DNA of 21,416 nt from a virus, in IMG/VR virus record IMGVR_UViG_3300037843_000174, positions 1 to 21,416 of that record. One strand, 5' to 3'. Of this stretch, positions 5,666 to 16,718 are shown one piece after another. Position numbers and translations under genes: made by a program. Every line of letters starts with the position of its first letter. Positions within the stretch are counted from its first letter, which is position 1. The notes beneath the pieces were generated by a model. The model was not told the origin of the DNA, made no database searches, and was given only the letters and a program-made list of their open reading frames with translations.

Positions 5666-6280
5666 ATGAAAGAACCAGTACAAATTACACGCCACGTTTC
5701 AAGAAACACAGACAAGACTCCGGCGATTGAATCGAGATTCGGAATCAGCCTGTCGGATGAAGCAGTAGCCATGTTCCAAGAATCTGCTACGCTCTACAAG
5801 ACGGCGCGTGATCTTTTCGAGAAAGCTTGCGACTTCGCAATGTCACAATTGGAAGAAGTTCGGACGAATAAACACGATAGGATGAAGTTAGTTCTCGCGC
5901 TAGCCAGGCCGATATGTCTCAAGTACATGAACTACCAGCAATTTGACTCCTATGCGGAAACAGAAAAGAAGATGCTTCTCTTCCGCGTTGACCGCAAGAC
6001 AGCATCTCTACCCGTCTCAGTGTTGTCCGCAGCAGCCGACGCCGTACTTGAAAAGAAAGACGAATACAAGGACATTGAGAGGACGGATGCCATTCAGATG
6101 GAAGCCAAGAACATCAGAGAGAAGTCCAAGGCGACCATCGAGACAATTCTACCGAAGTTGAACGCGGCATTCTTTATCATTTCTAAGCTTGTTCGCAATG
6201 TTGGTGGACAGAAAGACCGTGAGGCGTGGCAGATCATTACAGAACATTTTGAAGAACATTTTGAACTCGACTACTCGTAA
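5666..6280 (+). CDS. Hypothetical helical protein
   Basis: This 204-aa protein starts at the ATG at 5666, two bases after the previous stop, with GAGGAG as Shine-Dalgarno. It is predicted largely helical and rich in Lys, Glu and Ala, with no Cys pairs, transmembrane segments or motifs that I recognise. Its base composition looks richer in A and T than the methyltransferase gene, which could mean a separate origin. About 43 bases follow it before the HTH gene, the longest gap in this block. Function unknown. Confidence 0.7.
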   Translation: MKEPVQITRHVSRNTDKTPAIESRFGISLSDEAVAMFQESATLYKTARDLFEKACDFAMSQLEEVRTNKHDRMKLVLALARPICLKYMNYQQFDSYAETEKKMLLFRVDRKTASLPVSVLSAAADAVLEKKDEYKDIERTDAIQMEAKNIREKSKATIETILPKLNAAFFIISKLVRNVGGQKDREAWQIITEHFEEHFELDYS

Positions 6281-7493: not shown

Positions 7494-7697
7494 ATGAAAC
7501 GCCTCGCTTGCCTCTTGTTTGCCGCTTGTTTTCTCTTTTCCCCGTGTTCCGTCGAAGCCGGCCCGCTGGCCCGCGTCCGCCAATGGAACCAGACTCGCCG
7601 GCACGTCCTGCCGCTGCGGCGTGTCGTGATCGTCAAGGCCCCGGCCGCGTGTGCCCCGGACGCATGTGCCCCGGCGACCTGTTCGCGTGCCAAGTAG
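7494..7697 (+). CDS. Small secreted Cys/Ala-rich protein
   Basis: This 67-aa protein starts at the ATG at 7494 behind AAAGGAAG. Residues 1-22 form a clear Sec signal peptide: MKR, a hydrophobic core, and a predicted signal peptidase I site after VEA. The mature part is about 45 aa, basic, with a Cys/Ala/Pro-rich tail (CAPDACAPATC). The function is unknown. It is the first gene behind the strong promoter at 7408 and sits just ahead of a secreted protease, so the two may act together outside the cytoplasm. Coding status rests on the signal peptide and ribosome-binding site. Confidence 0.65.
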   Translation: MKRLACLLFAACFLFSPCSVEAGPLARVRQWNQTRRHVLPLRRVVIVKAPAACAPDACAPATCSRAK

Positions 7698-7743
7698 AGG
7701 CCCGCATCCAACCCCTTACCTCATTTTCAGTTTGGAGAAACCC

Positions 7744-9162
7744 ATGAAATTCTTTTCCCTGTTCGCAATCGTGCTTTGCTGCAACGTGGCCGGAAGTCTG
7801 GCCCAGCAGCCGGCCCCCGATCATTCGCTCATCGTCAATGGCCAATGGATGCTCGTCCCGGTCCTTCCGACGCCGCCGCTTGCCGCGCCTTGCGGATGCA
7901 AGACTTCCTCTGACGACAATGCCGACATGGCCGAGGCCGTCGCCCGCGGCTTCGGTTCTCGACTGGCCATCGGGCCATTCAAGGAGGCAACCACTGCCGT
8001 CCGCGCATGGCGCGCAAGTGACGGGAACGACCTAAAGAAGTTGCAGGCACGACTTGATCGGACGCCTCGGTTCACGGAGTGTCAGAAGGCCACAATGGCC
8101 TTGATCGCCCTGGAAATGACCAACTCGTTTTCTCCGGGTACGATCCCGCCCCAGGTAATTCAACTGGCGATTCAACTCCAGGCTGCGGCTTGCTCGGCTC
8201 CTCCTGTTCCGACACTCGCACCGATCGGCAAGATTCCGCCCGTTCCGAAGAAGCACGCTACCGGCCTGATCATCCTTCCCGAGAAGACCCGAAACGCCTT
8301 GCACGTTAGGGACGCCTTGACCCACAAGGCATTCCACTCCAAACACGGCGCGATCACGATTCCAAGTAGCCTTGACCTTCGCTCCGGTTGCCCGGCAATC
8401 GAAGACCAGGACGGCGTGGGGACGTGTCACGACCATTCAGGCGTCGATACGGTCTGTTGCGCCAACATTAAGGACGGAAACTTGACGATTTCGCAACCGC
8501 TATCCGTGCAGTACATCGTGGACCTAGATCCGAACGGTGACGGCACTTGCGACGGCGGTGATGCAACCACGATCTTCCAATGGCTCAAACAAGGCAACGG
8601 TATTCCTACCGTCCAATCCTACGGGCCGGAAGATAATGCTTGCAATCAGGGTTGCCAACTCAGTGGTACGGCGTCGGGATTTACGATCCAAGATTGGGGA
8701 TATGCCGGTACGGTCACTGGCCCTGCCGACGTGCAATCTGTCGAGGAATCGCTTGTGACCTACGGCGTGACGAGCGTGTGCATAGGCTGCCCCGACGACT
8801 TCATGAACTACAGCGGCGGAATCTACGTCGGAGACCTGTCGAGTGGCATCGACCATCAAGTCAGTCTCGTCGGCTACAAGATCGACCCCACGGTTTCCGG
8901 CGGCGGATACTTCATCCTCCGCAACTCATGGGGCACCGGCTGGGGCGAGAAAGGATACGCCCGCGTGGCATTCTCCTGCAATGCGACGACCGAGTCCATG
9001 TGGGCTACGGCCAAGAAGGGACAGACCACGGTGGTTCAACCGTTTTCAAGCCCGACACCTTCGGATAGGGTGTTGAAGCTCTATGAGATGGGTAGGAAGA
9101 ACCCGACCCTCGCAAAGAAGGCACTCAAGGCCGCAGAGGACGTTTTCCAGAACGCTCCTTGA
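7744..9162 (+). CDS. Secreted papain-family (C1A) cysteine protease
   Basis: This 472-aa protein starts at the ATG at 7744 behind TTGGAGAAA. Residues 1-20 form a signal peptide (cleavage after SLA). A region of about 190 residues follows that could be a propeptide. The papain-like domain starts at LDLRSGCPAIEDQDG. The oxyanion Gln222 and nucleophile Cys228 (GTCHDHSG) have the six-residue spacing of papain Q19/C25. His371 (DHQVSLVGY) and Asn394 (RNSWGTGWGEKGY) complete the triad. The Trp usually after the catalytic Cys is His here. C1A proteases cut proteins; in a phage this is unusual. Possible roles are envelope or S-layer degradation, an exported virulence-type factor, or virion processing. 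The target is unknown. Confidence 0.88.
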   Translation: MKFFSLFAIVLCCNVAGSLAQQPAPDHSLIVNGQWMLVPVLPTPPLAAPCGCKTSSDDNADMAEAVARGFGSRLAIGPFKEATTAVRAWRASDGNDLKKLQARLDRTPRFTECQKATMALIALEMTNSFSPGTIPPQVIQLAIQLQAAACSAPPVPTLAPIGKIPPVPKKHATGLIILPEKTRNALHVRDALTHKAFHSKHGAITIPSSLDLRSGCPAIEDQDGVGTCHDHSGVDTVCCANIKDGNLTISQPLSVQYIVDLDPNGDGTCDGGDATTIFQWLKQGNGIPTVQSYGPEDNACNQGCQLSGTASGFTIQDWGYAGTVTGPADVQSVEESLVTYGVTSVCIGCPDDFMNYSGGIYVGDLSSGIDHQVSLVGYKIDPTVSGGGYFILRNSWGTGWGEKGYARVAFSCNATTESMWATAKKGQTTVVQPFSSPTPSDRVLKLYEMGRKNPTLAKKALKAAEDVFQNAP

Positions 9163-10302: not shown

Positions 10303-10985
10303 AAACAGCCACTCCGAAAACCAAACGTCGCAAACGGCCAGTCAACGGCCTTTCGACCGAACTCATGGACGCCATGCTCCGTGAGTATACGGAGTGGCAG
10401 TCCCGCGTCCAAGCCGAAGACCCGAATCTACCGGCAACTCTATCAGCGGACGACCTCTACTTCCTTGAATCAGGCCGGATGCCGGTAGACCAGGTTCAAT
10501 CTCTCCGCAAGCGAATCTTTGCCGATCTCGTCAGTCGGGGGTTTTCGGAAGCGGACGTGTGCCAGCGGCTTGTCTTGTCGCATAAGAGCTATTGCAAACT
10601 TGCACTTCGCAGCTTCGGCGTAGACGATCCGAAGCTCGTTCGGGCGCAATGCTCCGCAAGGAACCTTGAAAGGCAAGGGAAGATCAAGGACGAAATCAAT
10701 CGAATGGACGAAATGAGGCAGCAGCGCATAGGGGGAGACCGTAGCTTCACGACTGCCGAACGGGATTCCTACTTCAAACTCATCAAACTCGCCAACGACC
10801 TCGACGAATCGTACCGCAAGTTGCACGCCGCCGATGCACCGGAACAAGTTGAAGTCAAAGAGATCAAACAGTACGACATCACCTTGAACGTCCGGGGCAC
10901 GCGAGAGGAGCTATCCGACATCCTGGAAGGCCAAGTGATCGACGTGCCAGCCCTGCCACCACCGGAGGTTTCCGATGGTAGCTGA
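10299..10985 (+). CDS. Probable terminase small subunit; start codon uncertain (possible AUA)
   Basis: The frame ends at 10985, overlapping the large terminase start, and encodes a basic N-terminus (KTKRRKRP), an HTH-like segment (GFSEADVCQRLVLSHKSYCKLAL) and a Lys/Glu-rich helical region, as in DNA-recognising small terminases. Position directly before terL supports this. The start is unclear. The frame is open back to 10095, but that overlaps two membrane protein genes. At 10299 an ATA lies exactly where the same junction sequence at 5443-5459 has ATG, behind AAGGAACCGAAG. ATG at 10365 has no Shine-Dalgarno and would drop the basic tail; TTG at 10224 is another option. From 10299 the protein is 228 aa. 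Confidence 0.68.
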   Translation: METATPKTKRRKRPVNGLSTELMDAMLREYTEWQSRVQAEDPNLPATLSADDLYFLESGRMPVDQVQSLRKRIFADLVSRGFSEADVCQRLVLSHKSYCKLALRSFGVDDPKLVRAQCSARNLERQGKIKDEINRMDEMRQQRIGGDRSFTTAERDSYFKLIKLANDLDESYRKLHAADAPEQVEVKEIKQYDITLNVRGTREELSDILEGQVIDVPALPPPEVSDGS

Positions 10986-12306
10986 AAGGAAATCAGTCGA
11001 GACTTATCCAAAGCAGAAGGCATTCTGCTTGGCAGATTACTTCTCCGTGGCAATGACAGGCGGCGTGGGTAGCGGAAAAAGTCGTAGTGGCGCGATTCGG
11101 TTGCTAACTCGGTCCAAGCCGCATTGTCACTACATGGTTGTGGCCCCGACATACAAGATGATGGATAAGTCTACGTTCTCGATCTTCCAGGAATACGCGG
11201 AACAATTCGGCCTATGGAGACGCGGCTGCTACAACGAAACGAAGAAGACCGCACAACTCGCCAATGGGGCAACCTACTATTTCTGTTCAGCGGAAGACCC
11301 TGATGGATTGCGGGGACCGAGCCTCAGTGAACTATGGGGCGATGAAATGCAGGGAACCAAGGAGGAAGCCTACACGATATTGAAGGGGCGACTCCGCGAA
11401 GGCGGCAAGCGTGGCAAGAGCCAATGGACGTTTACCCCAGGCAGCCCCGACCACTGGACGAGCAAGCACTTCATTAAGAATTGCACGATTGAGGCATACG
11501 AGCAGATAAATACTAAATTCGGCCCGGCCAGGATCAAGTGCCTGAAAAACCCGGAAGGCGACAGCGTTTTCTTCCGGGCGTCCCTCAAAGAGAATACATT
11601 CATAGAGCCGTCATTCTACGCCTCGCTTCTACGCGACTACGCTGCTTCACCCATGCGTATCCTACGCGAGCTTGAAGGCGAGTGCGTCTACATGGAAGGG
11701 GCCGAGTGGCAGGCGGAATACTTCGATAACCTCTGGTTCAAAGAATGGCCGCCAATGGCACAGGGAGGAATCCGCGTCGTGTCGCTCGATTCGTCGCTTG
11801 GCAAGGAAGGCAAGGGCGACGACTACGCGGCCTACGTCAAGTGCCTATGGCAGAACGGGATCATGTACCTTGACGCCGATATGAGGAAGCGAGAGGACTC
11901 ATCCAAGATATGCCACAACGGCGTGGAAATTTACCGCGACTTCAACCCGCATTACTTCGTGGTTGAGGAAGAAATGGGGATGAATCTGCTCATCGCGGAA
12001 ATGCACAAGATTGCCGACGAACAGAAAGTAGTAATGGCTATCACGCCAATGGGGACGGACAAGATTCCAAAGGAGCAACGGATTCGCCGGTTGACGCCGT
12101 ATGTTTCTCGCAGGCAGTTTCGCTTCAAGGCCAATTCGCCGGGGGCGAAATTGCTAGTCGAGCAGATGATGGCTTTCCCACTTGCTGAAAATGACGATGG
12201 GGTAGACTCCCTGGAATACGCGGTTCGCTGTCTTGTTCTCGCAACCACGGGACAGATTTTGCGTCCACGACTGATAGCCTACAATATGATGCAGCAAGCG
12301 GTATAA
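10975..12306 (+). CDS. terL: Terminase large subunit
   Basis: This 443-aa protein starts at the ATG at 10975, overlapping the small terminase by 11 bases, with GGAGG upstream. The ATPase domain has Walker A GGVGSGKS at residues 29-36 and a Walker B-like WGDEMQ near residue 122. The C-terminal RNase H-like nuclease shows its acidic residues in VVSLDSS, in FVVEEEMG and in DDGVDSLEY near the end. TerL docks on the portal, pumps phage DNA into the prohead and cuts the concatemer. The length is at the short end of the family. The last codons overlap a TATAAT that precedes the first CRISPR-like repeat. Confidence 0.92.
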   Translation: MVAERKSVETYPKQKAFCLADYFSVAMTGGVGSGKSRSGAIRLLTRSKPHCHYMVVAPTYKMMDKSTFSIFQEYAEQFGLWRRGCYNETKKTAQLANGATYYFCSAEDPDGLRGPSLSELWGDEMQGTKEEAYTILKGRLREGGKRGKSQWTFTPGSPDHWTSKHFIKNCTIEAYEQINTKFGPARIKCLKNPEGDSVFFRASLKENTFIEPSFYASLLRDYAASPMRILRELEGECVYMEGAEWQAEYFDNLWFKEWPPMAQGGIRVVSLDSSLGKEGKGDDYAAYVKCLWQNGIMYLDADMRKREDSSKICHNGVEIYRDFNPHYFVVEEEMGMNLLIAEMHKIADEQKVVMAITPMGTDKIPKEQRIRRLTPYVSRRQFRFKANSPGAKLLVEQMMAFPLAENDDGVDSLEYAVRCLVLATTGQILRPRLIAYNMMQQAV

Positions 12307-12313: not shown

Positions 12314-12345
12314 GTCGCCCGCCGCGTGCGGGCGTGGATTGAAAC
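12314..12345 (+). repeat. Solitary type I-C CRISPR-like repeat unit, copy 1
   Basis: The 32-base unit is GT, then the arm CGCCCGC, loop CGCGT, arm GCGGGCG, then the 11-base tail TGGATTGAAAC. The arms form a perfect 7-bp stem. Size, hairpin and tail match type I-C CRISPR repeats, whose RNAs are cut by Cas5d at the 3' base of the stem to leave an 11-nt 5' handle. No second repeat follows at array spacing, and there are no cas genes. It lies between terL and the portal gene, 46 bases before the portal ATG, on the same strand. I read it as a phage-borne solitary repeat. It is not a terminator because no U-tract follows. Confidence 0.9.
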
Positions 12346-12391
12346 CACCACGGGCAACGGCCTACGCAGCAATGGGACAGGCGGTGTAACT

Positions 12392-14686
12392 ATGAACATC
12401 CTATCTCGCATTACGGAAGTCTTTCGCGGAAAGCCGGAACGACCGGCCCCGCCGCCGGTATCCTTCGTCACACCGGAAGTATTCCGGGACATTAACCGTT
12501 TGAAGCAGGAATGCACCTGGCTTTCCCGCCTCTTGGAAGACGACATCACCGGCGAAATAGGCTTCACCAACGGGCTTGATGGTACGGACTTCTGGGGCCA
12601 GCAATCGCAAGTAGGCGACTTCCGCGACGGGAGCTACCGATTCGCTTACGATATGTGCATGTTCCGACCGTGCTACGGGGCCGCGTTCTACATCAATGAG
12701 GTTCAGCACCGTCGCATCAGGGCCAAGTCTAGGGCTTTCTGTTCGATCAATCCCTACTCGCACGGAATCCTTCATTCGCTGAAAACGCACGTCATCGGCA
12801 AGGGCCACAACTGGACGGCCGGGTGGCGGAATCCAAACTCCAAGGGTCCAGAGGATATGCTGACGCGAGTGCAAGCGGACCTGGACGAGTTCTACGCCGC
12901 CGGCTACCGCGAACACCAGAAAGAATCCATCGAACGCCGCAGCCGCGACGGTGAATTCTTCCGCCGCTTCAAGGTTCAAGGGGGACGCTTGCGGGTGTCT
13001 TTCGTTGAACCGCTGAACGTCTGGACGCCGCCGGGATCATCGGAGACTACCAACTGCTACTTCGGTATCCAATTCGACGGCGACGATTACGAGAACCCAC
13101 AAGGCTACTACATTCGCCGCACGAACTATCTCGGTGCACAGACGAAAGCACTCGAAGGATGGCAGCGGATGGTCTCTGCCGACGAAATCCAGCACGTCAA
13201 AAACAACGTCGATAAGGGGACACCACGCGGAATCCCGGACACCTACTGGACACAGGCCCGGCTAGAGCAATCCTTGAAGACCTTGAAGGCATCGGGCAAC
13301 CTCGTCCAATTCAGGAACAAGGTCGGCTTGATCCGGCAGCATGTTGACGCGCTAGCCGGAAGCATCCAGCCGCTTCTGTCGCAGAATGCCGTCACGACGA
13401 TCCACACGCCGACAGGACGGCAGGATACGCTTTGGGATTTGCCAGACGCAGCAGTTGTCGATGCCTCGAATCAGACGCAGTACACCTTCCCGTCTCAGAA
13501 TCTTGAGATCAAGGAAACCATAGCGGCGATCCAGGCCGAGCTTCAATCCGTCGCTACGTCGATGGGTTTGGCCGATTACATGGTGTCAGGTACATTAGGG
13601 GCAGGTGCTTCCTACAGTGCGAGCATGGTAGCAGAAGGGCCGGTAGTCAAGACATTTGAGGATCATCAGTACGATACCATCGACGCCGATACTTTGGTCG
13701 TTGCAAAGATCATCGACGTAGGCATTGAGTACGGCCGCTACCCGGAGGAAGCACGCGAACTAGTCCGCGTGGAAATGAGGGGACCGCCACTTGGACGACT
13801 TGGAATCCAGGCCGCCCAGGAGATGCAGATCGAAAGCCAATGCGGCATAACGTCCAAGCGTACATGGCGAATGCTTATAGGCCGTGACGACGAAACCGAG
13901 ACGGCGAATCTTGCCGCTGAGAAGGAAGCTGAAGCAAAGACGGAAGCCGAGCTTGCGAAGAAGTACCCGCAGCCTATGCCGACGCCGGGAGTGAACGGCA
14001 ACGGCAAGCCTGGCACAAACGGCCAGCAGAATGGAACCGGACCCAGGAACCGCATGACGCCAAATGCGCGGCCGTTCTCTGCCGATCAAGAGGGACGGCA
14101 GATGCAGCGGGCCAGCGGGGCCACAGTCGAGGAAGCGTTCGACACGTGGTTCCAATCGCGGTTACAAGAGAGTAGTCACGACCCGGCAGGGCACGACAAG
14201 CCTACCGAATCAGAATTAGCAATGGCGACGGTTTGGATTACCGACGATTTCCTTGCGAAAATCAAGTCCGAAATTCTTTCCCTGCCACGAATGAAAGAGC
14301 CTATCGACCCGGCAACGGCAGGGGAGTACGAACCTGGCGTAAAAGGCTTACGGCTTGGCGTCGTCGATAACCAGACTGTATGGGCGGTTGACATGCGGGA
14401 GATGTCTGTCCGCCACGATTCCGCCGACACGATTGTAGCGGGCAACTCGGAACGCTGGCCTTTCTTGCCACCTGAGATCATCTTCGTGGATTGGTCCTTT
14501 GTCGCCTATGATCGTAATTGCGACCTATTGCACGAATGCTGCGAGTTTGTTATGATGCGGGATGGGAAGTTCAGCTACAGCCTCGCTCATAAACTATCCA
14601 ACTACTTTGAACGCGAGTGGCTTTTTGTCTTGCGGCCTGAATTGAAAGTCTTGGCTGAAGCAGTAGCGGCTACGGAAACAGAATGA
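12392..14686 (+). CDS. Portal protein with C-terminal HExxE-type extension
   Basis: This 764-aa protein is read from the ATG at 12392; the frame is open back to a GTG inside the CRISPR-like repeat, but that start has no support. It follows terL and contains portal-like segments in residues 1-540 (for example RRSRDGEFFRRF, VKNNVDKGTPRGIPDTYW, and GLADYMVSGTLGAGASYS), so it is probably a lambda-type portal, the dodecameric DNA gate. A low-complexity linker rich in Pro, Gly and Asn (about residues 530-560) leads to an added domain of about 150 aa. That domain ends with LLHECCEFVMM (His714, Glu715, Glu718) and SLAHKLSNYFERE, a putative metal-site pattern that I have seen as separate small phage proteins. 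The function of the extension is unknown. Confidence 0.85.
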   Translation: MNILSRITEVFRGKPERPAPPPVSFVTPEVFRDINRLKQECTWLSRLLEDDITGEIGFTNGLDGTDFWGQQSQVGDFRDGSYRFAYDMCMFRPCYGAAFYINEVQHRRIRAKSRAFCSINPYSHGILHSLKTHVIGKGHNWTAGWRNPNSKGPEDMLTRVQADLDEFYAAGYREHQKESIERRSRDGEFFRRFKVQGGRLRVSFVEPLNVWTPPGSSETTNCYFGIQFDGDDYENPQGYYIRRTNYLGAQTKALEGWQRMVSADEIQHVKNNVDKGTPRGIPDTYWTQARLEQSLKTLKASGNLVQFRNKVGLIRQHVDALAGSIQPLLSQNAVTTIHTPTGRQDTLWDLPDAAVVDASNQTQYTFPSQNLEIKETIAAIQAELQSVATSMGLADYMVSGTLGAGASYSASMVAEGPVVKTFEDHQYDTIDADTLVVAKIIDVGIEYGRYPEEARELVRVEMRGPPLGRLGIQAAQEMQIESQCGITSKRTWRMLIGRDDETETANLAAEKEAEAKTEAELAKKYPQPMPTPGVNGNGKPGTNGQQNGTGPRNRMTPNARPFSADQEGRQMQRASGATVEEAFDTWFQSRLQESSHDPAGHDKPTESELAMATVWITDDFLAKIKSEILSLPRMKEPIDPATAGEYEPGVKGLRLGVVDNQTVWAVDMREMSVRHDSADTIVAGNSERWPFLPPEIIFVDWSFVAYDRNCDLLHECCEFVMMRDGKFSYSLAHKLSNYFEREWLFVLRPELKVLAEAVAATETE

Positions 14687-14856
14687 CACGCACTATTCAG
14701 ACTTCTGGGATATACCGGATTCGTAACACGGTAAACAACCGTGCGTACTACGGAAGTTCCGTGAACATGCACCAGCGATGGCTGCGGCACCGAACCGACT
14801 TAATTCCGCTTGGCCGCCGTGCCTTCCTTGAACGCCGTGGAGTGCTTCACGCATGA
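14683..14856 (+). CDS. Mini GIY-YIG-like protein (57 aa)
   Basis: The ATG at 14683 overlaps the portal stop (ATGA), and the TGA overlaps the next ATG. Residues 8-33 follow the start of a GIY-YIG nuclease domain: SGIYRIRNTVNNRAYYGSS then QRWLRH, that is GIY, YYG in place of YIG, and the catalytic-type Arg. The domain normally continues for about 50 more residues to a metal-binding Glu; here it ends after GVLHA. It is therefore either a degenerate remnant of a homing nuclease or a miniature derivative. It is unlikely to cut DNA by itself. Confidence 0.65.
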   Translation: MTRTIQTSGIYRIRNTVNNRAYYGSSVNMHQRWLRHRTDLIPLGRRAFLERRGVLHA

Positions 14857-15080
14857 CCATCCAGCCCGGCAGTCTCTACCAAGTTTCGATATCTGACCGT
14901 GGAAGCGGAACGGTCAAGGCTGTTCGCACGACCGGCGACGGCATGGTATGCAGCATCATCGTGCATGGGAGGTTCAAGAACCGCGTGCCGAACAGTCAGG
15001 TCAGGATCGACGGCGACCATTTATGTTTCCGCCCAGAAGGCAAGGGAGTTACCGTGAAACCCTTGAAATTGGAACCTTAA
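14853..15080 (+). CDS. Small hypothetical beta-rich protein
   Basis: This 75-aa protein starts at the ATG at 14853, overlapping the previous stop (ATGA). Alternating polar and hydrophobic residues (SLYQVSISDRGSGTVKAV, then MVCSIIVHGRF) suggest a small beta-barrel. It ends with a Lys/Pro-rich tail. It has no motif that I recognise. Its position between portal and head genes suggests a virion assembly or accessory role, but this is only inference. Confidence 0.6.
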   Translation: MTIQPGSLYQVSISDRGSGTVKAVRTTGDGMVCSIIVHGRFKNRVPNSQVRIDGDHLCFRPEGKGVTVKPLKLEP

Positions 15081-15097
15081 CACGAAAGGAAAGTGAA

Positions 15098-15478
15098 GTG
15101 CGTTTTGAACCGCCCTTAGACAGCGTGATCGTTGAGCGTGAGCTTGTACACAAGAGTCCCGAAGGCATCACGTACCCGCAACCGCTTGTCCAGTGGTACG
15201 GCCGCATCGTCGCCGCTGGACCGGGGATGCTTCGGACGATGCAAGCAGTGGTACGTTTAATCGACCCGCCAGGCTGCGATCTTGACCGTTTCCCCATGCA
15301 GTACAAGGTGGGCGACCTGGTTATCTGCCCGCCCGGCATGACGGCGTTTCCAGAGGAGATTCCGGTCCCGAAGTCCGGCAACACCCGCCTGTTCGTGTGC
15401 AGTGAGCGGCAGTTGCTTGCCAAGGTCATCTTTGAGGACGGAGATAAGCAACCAGCCAGCAACGGAAAGGCGGGGTAG
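15098..15478 (+). CDS. GroES-like co-chaperonin
   Basis: The 126-aa product starts at a GTG at 15098 behind AAAGGAAA. It has the order of a GroES chain: PLDSVIVERE at the N-terminus, a middle loop (SPEGITYPQP), GRIVAAGPG near residue 40, YKVGDLVICPPG near residue 70, and a final beta strand LFVCSERQLLAKV. GroES caps GroEL for protein folding in the cytoplasm. Phage T4 gp31 is a GroES replacement needed to fold the capsid protein. Location between portal and capsid genes fits the same job here. It is longer than bacterial GroES (about 95 aa), with extra residues at the C-terminus and in the middle. Confidence 0.78.
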   Translation: MRFEPPLDSVIVERELVHKSPEGITYPQPLVQWYGRIVAAGPGMLRTMQAVVRLIDPPGCDLDRFPMQYKVGDLVICPPGMTAFPEEIPVPKSGNTRLFVCSERQLLAKVIFEDGDKQPASNGKAG

Positions 15479-15530
15479 GCTGTGAGTGTGGCGTCCCCAT
15501 TGAGCAGATTCACCCGGAGGTCAAGGAGTA

Positions 15531-15932
15531 ATGGCGAAGAATCGAATGGAAGAACTTCTCTCACGGCCATTGCGCACCGCCGACGAATTGCATGCCGCCG
15601 AGGCAGGCGAACAGTCTGGCGGCGTGCCGTGGGCTGAACCATCGGAACAAGAGGGGCAGACTCCCAATCCGACTCCGCTACGGGAATCTGAAGACCGGCT
15701 ATACCGTTTCCCAGAGCCGCCAGCGGCAATCACGCCTATCCTGTCCACGAACAACCGCGAGAAGTTGGAACGTGCCAAGGCTCATATTGAGAAGCTATTT
15801 CTACTCGCGGCGGCAGGATTGATTGAAGGCGTTCACTTCTATGGCAAGACGAGTATTGAAGTGTCTTGGCAGGATGGTTCCGCCCAGCAGATAAGCACGT
15901 CAATCTCTGCCAAGGACCAAATGCTGCAATAG
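15531..15932 (+). CDS. Hypothetical protein
   Basis: This 133-aa protein starts at the ATG at 15531 behind GGAGG and AAGGAG. The N-terminal half is polar and probably disordered (Glu, Pro, Gly and Ser rich). The C-terminal half has a helix (NREKLERAKAHIEKLFLLAAA) and a short beta-rich part (VHFYGKTSIEVSWQDGSAQQ). I recognise no family. It ends 60 bases upstream of the second CRISPR-like repeat. A head or DNA-accessory role is only a guess from location. Confidence 0.65.
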   Translation: MAKNRMEELLSRPLRTADELHAAEAGEQSGGVPWAEPSEQEGQTPNPTPLRESEDRLYRFPEPPAAITPILSTNNREKLERAKAHIEKLFLLAAAGLIEGVHFYGKTSIEVSWQDGSAQQISTSISAKDQMLQ

Positions 15933-15991
15933 CGAACAATGGCCAATGACCTAGTTCTATCGAAGATCAATTCTGCCCGTGGTGTTCTTGC

Positions 15992-16023
15992 GTCGCCCGT
16001 CGTGTGCGGGCGTGGATTGAAAC
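15992..16023 (+). repeat. Solitary type I-C CRISPR-like repeat unit, copy 2
   Basis: The unit is GT, arm CGCCCGT, loop CGTGT, arm GCGGGCG, tail TGGATTGAAAC, again 32 bases. It differs from copy 1 at two positions, both C to T: the last base of the 5' arm, which becomes a G-U wobble so the stem survives, and one loop base. The 11-base handle is identical. No array neighbour exists. It stands 14 bases before the ATG of the sigma factor gene, so its hairpin would lie in that gene's leader and could affect its translation. Confidence 0.9.
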
Positions 16024-16037
16024 AATAAGGGGACAGG

Positions 16038-16718
16038 ATGCCCACAGCTACACGGAATATCGACACGGAAGCCTCACTTTGGCGGGCCTATTGGCATGGA
16101 CGCTGCGATGATGCGTTCAATAGGCTCGTCAACTTCTATCTGCCGTGGGTGAAGCAACTAGCCTTCAATCAGGCCGCCAAGTTGCCTGATAGCGTCGATT
16201 GGCAAGACCTGTTTCAAGACGGCTCGATAGCCCTATTGGATTGCATCCGACGATTCGACAAGCGGCGTGGCTTGAAGTTTAAGACGTTCGCCATGCGACG
16301 GATCGCAGGGTCGTTCTCTGACGGGCTGCGAAATATGGATTGGGTTCCTAGACTCGTCCGACAACGGAAAGAACCCGTCGTTGTCATGCGTCAGGAGAAG
16401 ATTCTCTACAACGAAAACGCCGACGAGAAACAGGATGCTTCCCACCCAAAAGTATACGACCGCAAGACAATGGAGTTACGGGACGAAGTGCGGCGTGCCT
16501 TGCGTGGATTGCGAAAGAACCAGCGATTATCCGTGATTCTCTACTTTTTGGAAGGTCTAAGCATGAAGGAAGCCGCGGAATCCATCGGCGTTTCCGAGTC
16601 CAGAGTCAGCCAGATAATCAGTGAAACCATCGTATTTATCCGTTCCAGGGAGAGAATTTCCGTCCAAGACCACGGAAATATAGGGAATCATCGAAAATCT
16701 GCTATTGCGATTCCATGA
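16038..16718 (+). CDS. Phage-encoded sigma-28-like (FliA/WhiG type) sigma factor
   Basis: This 226-aa protein starts at the ATG at 16038. The leader GGGGACAGG is close to the start. Region 2 (about residues 10-105) follows the FliA/SigB type: LWRAYWHGRCDDAF, LVNFYLPWVKQLA, LPDSVDWQDLFQDGSIALLD, RFDKRRGLKFKTFAMRRI and DWVPRLVRQR (separate fragments). Region 4 (about residues 155-210) has LRKNQRLSVILYFLEGLSMK and the recognition helix ESIGVSESRVSQI. The stretch between is short and polar, so region 3 seems missing. It would redirect host RNA polymerase to phage promoters, probably late ones. Its gene is the only clear transcription regulator among the head genes. It is preceded by a CRISPR-like repeat and followed by a terminator. 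Confidence 0.88.
   Translation: MPTATRNIDTEASLWRAYWHGRCDDAFNRLVNFYLPWVKQLAFNQAAKLPDSVDWQDLFQDGSIALLDCIRRFDKRRGLKFKTFAMRRIAGSFSDGLRNMDWVPRLVRQRKEPVVVMRQEKILYNENADEKQDASHPKVYDRKTMELRDEVRRALRGLRKNQRLSVILYFLEGLSMKEAAESIGVSESRVSQIISETIVFIRSRERISVQDHGNIGNHRKSAIAIP

Follow-up and report, generated by a model that had tools for sequence, protein, structure and literature searches.

Two solitary type I-C repeats in a terminase-portal-sigma factor region

The window analyzed here, a stretch of 21,416 nucleotides that covers positions 1 to 21,416 of the IMG/VR viral record IMGVR_UViG_3300037843_000174, carries two lone copies of a type I-C CRISPR repeat, both on the + strand and each placed ahead of a phage gene. 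Unit 1 (12314-12345; GTCGCCCGCCGCGTGCGGGCGTGGATTGAAAC) lies between the stop codon at 12306 of the terminase large subunit gene, terL (10975-12306, + strand, identified by PHROG matches), and the ATG at 12392 of a portal protein gene (12392-14686, + strand; phrog_21, E = 2.4e-25). Unit 2 (15992-16023; GTCGCCCGTCGTGTGCGGGCGTGGATTGAAAC) follows at a spacing of 3678 nt, between the stop at 15932 of an ORF of 133 amino acids with no family match (15531-15932, + strand) and the ATG at 16038 of an RNA polymerase sigma factor gene (16038-16718, + strand; phrog_351, E = 2e-20). An earlier note on this DNA had placed both repeats in gene leaders of a phage late region. The leader placement is borne out, with unit 1 ending 46 nt and unit 2 only 14 nt upstream of the respective start codons, and both units are intergenic. 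The word “late” suits terL and the portal gene but fits less well with unit 2, which leads a sigma factor gene.

The leader from unit 1 to the portal start codon (12346-12391, + strand) occupies the place of a “pseudo-spacer” after the repeat, and the 14 nt between unit 2 and the sigma factor ATG (16024-16037, + strand; AATAAGGGGACAGG) contain a likely ribosome-binding site. Small reading frames not in the ORF list run across both units; the one overlapping unit 2 exists because the frame of the 133-residue ORF stays open past its TAG, from 15933 to 16029, and passes through the repeat to a TAA (RTMANDLVLSKINSARGVLASPVVCGRGLKQ, then stop). A search for sigma-70-like promoters found none between 10900 and 16800, where the promoter type used by the phage or its host may differ from sigma-70.

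Both units stand alone, as the earlier note had stated. No repeat flanks either of them, what lies between them is genes rather than a spacer, and none of the window proteins that were scanned matched a Cas family. The same phage is also represented by a longer contig, IMGVR_UViG_3300018019_000025 (33,447 bp), which holds the whole window at 99.95% identity and has no third copy even when 9 mismatches are allowed. No known acr gene was recognized near the units.

Several neighboring genes deserve mention in their own right. Just after the portal gene, a 54-residue frame (14692-14856) matches the beginning of the GIY-YIG catalytic domain (Pfam, E = 2.3e-6) and is probably a truncated homing endonuclease. 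An ORF at 15098-15478 looks by eye like a GroES-like co-chaperonin (VIVERE...GRIVAAGPG...YKVGDLVI), with no match in Pfam, and upstream of terL a 503-residue protein (7651-9162) has a papain-family cysteine protease domain (Pfam, E = 4.1e-30).

Sequence and predicted fold of the repeats

The two units are 32 nt each and identical at 30 of 32 bases, and both have the layout of type I-C repeats, GTCGC...GCG followed by TGGATTGAAAC, which corresponds to a 7-bp stem, a 5-nt loop, and an 11-nt handle; positions and folding agree with the earlier description on all of these counts, including the separation of 3.7 kb. In unit 1 the stem pairs 12316-12322 with 12328-12334 around a loop at 12323-12327, and the handle occupies 12335-12345. 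In unit 2 the hairpin spans 15994-16012 and the predicted handle 16013-16023. Cleavage of type I-C pre-crRNA by Cas5d produces an 11-nt handle at the 5′ end; the enzyme remains bound to the 3′ hairpin, and the 5′ handle is proposed to be held by a second Cas5 (PMC5965380). With this cleavage geometry, the predicted Cas5d cut in unit 1 falls after 12334.

The two positions at which the units differ are both C in unit 1 and T in unit 2. Position 9 of the repeat turns a C-G stem pair into U-G, and position 12 falls in the loop, so that in predicted folds both differences preserve the RNA structure, as had been proposed. Folded alone, the units reach −14.0 (unit 1) and −12.3 kcal/mol (unit 2), and the repeat of the Bacillus halodurans I-C system is predicted to take the same shape, a 7-bp stem with a 5-nt loop. 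In the context of their leaders most stem pairs of both units keep a probability of 0.7-1.0, with the outermost pair of unit 1 lost (probability 0.01-0.03). No family was matched in a search of Rfam. Shuffled sequence gave 0 matches to the units within 3 mismatches, and a chance origin of the unit matches is therefore excluded.

The sequence directly 3′ of unit 1 carries a trace of its history. A frame at 12346-12389 (PPRATAYAAMGQAV, then stop) resembles the end of TerL (RPRLIAYNMMQQAV, then stop), with a score over 13 positions of 28 against a background maximum of 11 in 845 windows, and can be read as a copy of the terL 3′ end that has since diverged. Lying directly behind the repeat, it suggests that unit 1 marks a site of recombination or duplication where terL ends. 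If the unit and the duplication arose together, the flanks would by now have drifted to about half identity, and a repeat still no more than one base from known arrays would point to selection. A swap of terL between phages would account for the junction equally well.

Matching arrays in bacteria and a second phage

The earlier note had called for a search for type I-C arrays with the same repeat, and a scan of genome contigs, whose listed matches give minimum numbers, finds them. Among the matches listed, a Bacillota MAG (L049) has a 6-copy array whose repeat is identical to unit 1 and two bases off unit 2; the proteins tested from its contig gave no cas match. The matches listed also include a Phycisphaerae MAG (L081), where csd1-csd2-cas4-cas1 adjoins an array of 9 copies whose repeat differs from unit 1 by one base. 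Two further genomes among these matches, G161 and G483, belong to one Planctomycetota order and share an array repeat (GTCGCCCGCCGTGTGCGGGCGTGGATTGAAAC) that is one base from each unit and thus exactly intermediate between them. The array of G161 adjoins cas3-cas5d-csd1-csd2-cas4-cas1, a type I-C cas operon, and the subtype of the phage units is assigned by their match to these known repeats and by the csd1, csd2, and cas5d genes that neighbor the arrays. The simplest history would be that one repeat of the G161/G483 type gave rise to two copies, each of which then took one structure-neutral change.

These matches leave the host less sharply defined than the repeat. The spacers of arrays with such repeats, approximately 1,220 in all, include none that matches the phage above chance; the matches reach up to 16 nt, which is the chance level. 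Tetranucleotide usage leans weakly toward the order that includes G161 and toward phage G002, described below, with other phyla close and G161 itself in the middle of the list. ThyX homologs in the G161 order are only about 45% identical, a level that is uninformative.

Phage G002 (IMGVR_UViG_3300029258_001507, 64.8 kb) has an exact copy of unit 1. The flanks differ, no other nucleotide similarity to the window occurs in the stretch compared, and the proteins of the two phages are only distantly similar. The occurrence of the same lone repeat in two phages that are at most distantly related argues against an accident; in G002 a short reading frame may enclose the repeat. Searches of IMG/VR for relatives by TerL, portal, and sigma factor returned only the same phage and one TerL fragment of 31% identity, and a nucleotide search of a phage collection with the window gave no match.

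Solitary I-C repeats across IMG/VR

A survey of all exact GTCGC-N13-GCGTGGATTGAAAC sites in IMG/VR yielded 93 nonredundant solitary units. Intergenic placement is common among them (61/93, compared with 19% of random positions), and both flanking genes are co-directional with the repeat in 28 cases and both opposite in 11. A ribosome site and ATG lie ≤60 nt downstream of 22 units in the sense direction and of 6 in the antisense direction, with about 6 expected at random positions (p = 0.004). The gene calls were simple, the criteria were settled while viewing the data, and the sites are few, and we take the sense-strand, start-proximal bias as an indication, not proof.

More than one solitary copy also occurs on other viral contigs, for example L160 and L204. 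This bears on the earlier argument that two different copies in one phage reflect selection rather than chance: chance is excluded by the shuffled sequences, but copy number is weak evidence for selection when other contigs are also multicopy. The exact unit 1 in G002 and the near-perfect matches to bacterial arrays are better evidence of retention.

Two other loci in the survey stood out. On L181 (reverse strand; position 5724 when the locus is reversed) a lone I-C repeat sits between the two copies of an exact 34-nt direct duplication, inside a gene that looks by eye like an IS3-type transposase. The target-repeat-target order resembles the outcome of recombination between a repeat-spacer unit and its own protospacer. 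On another viral contig a solitary I-C repeat is followed after 34 nt by the gene for a protein with a restriction-alleviation (Lar) domain (L248:1077-1667, − strand), a possible anti-defense neighborhood.

Relation to known systems

Solitary repeat units (SRUs) of viruses are an established class, with 2,103 already catalogued in viral sequence, including IMG/VR version 3 (PMC10651486). The earlier note was right that solitary phage repeats have been published as RNA anti-CRISPRs (Racrs), one of them, RacrIC1, an inhibitor of type I-C, and it set the implied novelty too high. The kind of element has been described before; what is new is the placement of the units upstream of start codons and the bias found in the survey.

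RacrIC1, from a Bifidobacterium pseudocatenulatum prophage (PMC10651486), resembles the present units in being a solitary I-C repeat on a phage without cas genes and in sharing a transcript with a protein gene, which here would follow from the placement of the units. It follows the acrIC5 gene and its activity was tested, whereas the units described here are known from sequence, number two, and precede portal and sigma factor genes with no acr gene recognized. RacrIF1, from a Thiocystis violascens prophage, is likewise a lone repeat predicted to divert crRNA-binding Cas proteins, in its case as a small noncoding RNA with a strong native promoter, and in type I-F the Racr RNA traps Cas6f and Cas7f (PMC10651486). 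Our units differ in being type I-C and in having no promoter that could be found, and the RNA trapped would be the phage's own message. The mini-arrays of other viruses (PMC11656645) also combine host-type repeats with a lack of cas genes, but they hold a spacer between repeats, usually one matching related viruses, in contrast to single repeats 3.7 kb apart.

Possible functions of the solitary repeats

Units 1 and 2 are SRUs and are probably RNA anti-CRISPRs against a type I-C host, which we consider their most likely role. Of the earlier proposal that they are candidate Racrs, the solitary I-C repeats and the matching arrays and cas operon are in place, and the functional part stays conditional. 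In the mechanism we envisage, the units would be transcribed inside phage mRNA leaders, and host Cas5d would bind each hairpin and cut it where the stem ends. The 5′ product would keep Cas5d on its hairpin, and the 3′ product would be the portal or sigma factor mRNA, whose first 11 nt would now form a genuine crRNA handle. This phage mRNA could be loaded with Cas5d and, after it, Cas7, although it has neither a matching target nor a closing second repeat, and Cas proteins would thereby be withdrawn from real crRNAs to the benefit of the phage.

The timing of such a decoy is a difficulty. The terminase and portal neighborhood is late for blocking CRISPR, and the late position together with the lack of a recognized promoter weighs against an early-acting anti-CRISPR. 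Validated Racrs have a promoter and are free small RNAs (PMC10651486), and the leader placement without a sigma-70-like promoter, being unlike these, leaves room for a role in cis. Here Cas5d-responsive regulation comes into view, in which the leader repeats would be cut or coated so that active type I-C proteins alter how the portal gene and, in particular, the sigma factor gene are translated. On the sigma factor mRNA a Cas filament would cover the start codon, which means that this alternative has to be taken seriously, unlikely as we judge it to be. The short gap between unit 2 and its ATG, with the ribosome site inside it, speaks for such control, as do the excess of sense over antisense repeats just upstream of viral start codons and the lack of a separate promoter in the sigma-70-type search. 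Unit 1, however, leaves 46 nt to the portal ATG, many other SRUs have no start codon nearby, a phage that shut off its own sigma factor would be damaged unless this served some use, and the need for transcription would by itself predict sense placement. That host repeats in phage 5′ leaders serve at once as decoy and as a switch reporting active CRISPR immunity to the sigma factor is an improbable combination.

Origin by recombination with a host array, leaving functionless repeats as neutral debris, seems unlikely. The terL-end duplicate does mark a recombination or duplication junction, and the 34-nt duplication on L181 illustrates that an accidental origin of a lone repeat is possible; against this, both copies are structure-perfect and in gene leaders, the same 32 bases recur in G002, and viral SRUs in general show an intergenic and sense bias. 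We give very little credence to a use as crRNA, in which the sequence after the handle would direct the Cascade of the host to a competing virus or to a gene of the host, in the manner of viral mini-arrays. A handle with approximately 35 nt behind it could load like a crRNA, judging from the type I-C cleavage geometry (PMC5965380), but the second repeat needed to close the unit is absent and the sequences after the handles are the phage's own leader, with 0 matches in 50,697 phage records, the unit 1 pseudo-spacer also being without a match in four genomes carrying such arrays. Least credible of all is a decayed array once carried by the phage: both copies do lie on the same strand, but 3.7 kb of phage genes intervene (portal, the GIY-YIG fragment, and ORFs of unknown function), and the 33,447-bp contig shows no degenerate copies, on which grounds we rejected this reading.

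The RNA anti-CRISPR reading, if the units are functional, would extend such inhibitors to a phage that may infect Planctomycetota and would mean that decoys can ride in the leaders of late mRNAs, not as separate small RNAs. The bias across the 93 viral I-C repeats would then make regulation of the downstream gene by Cas5d cutting a testable proposition.
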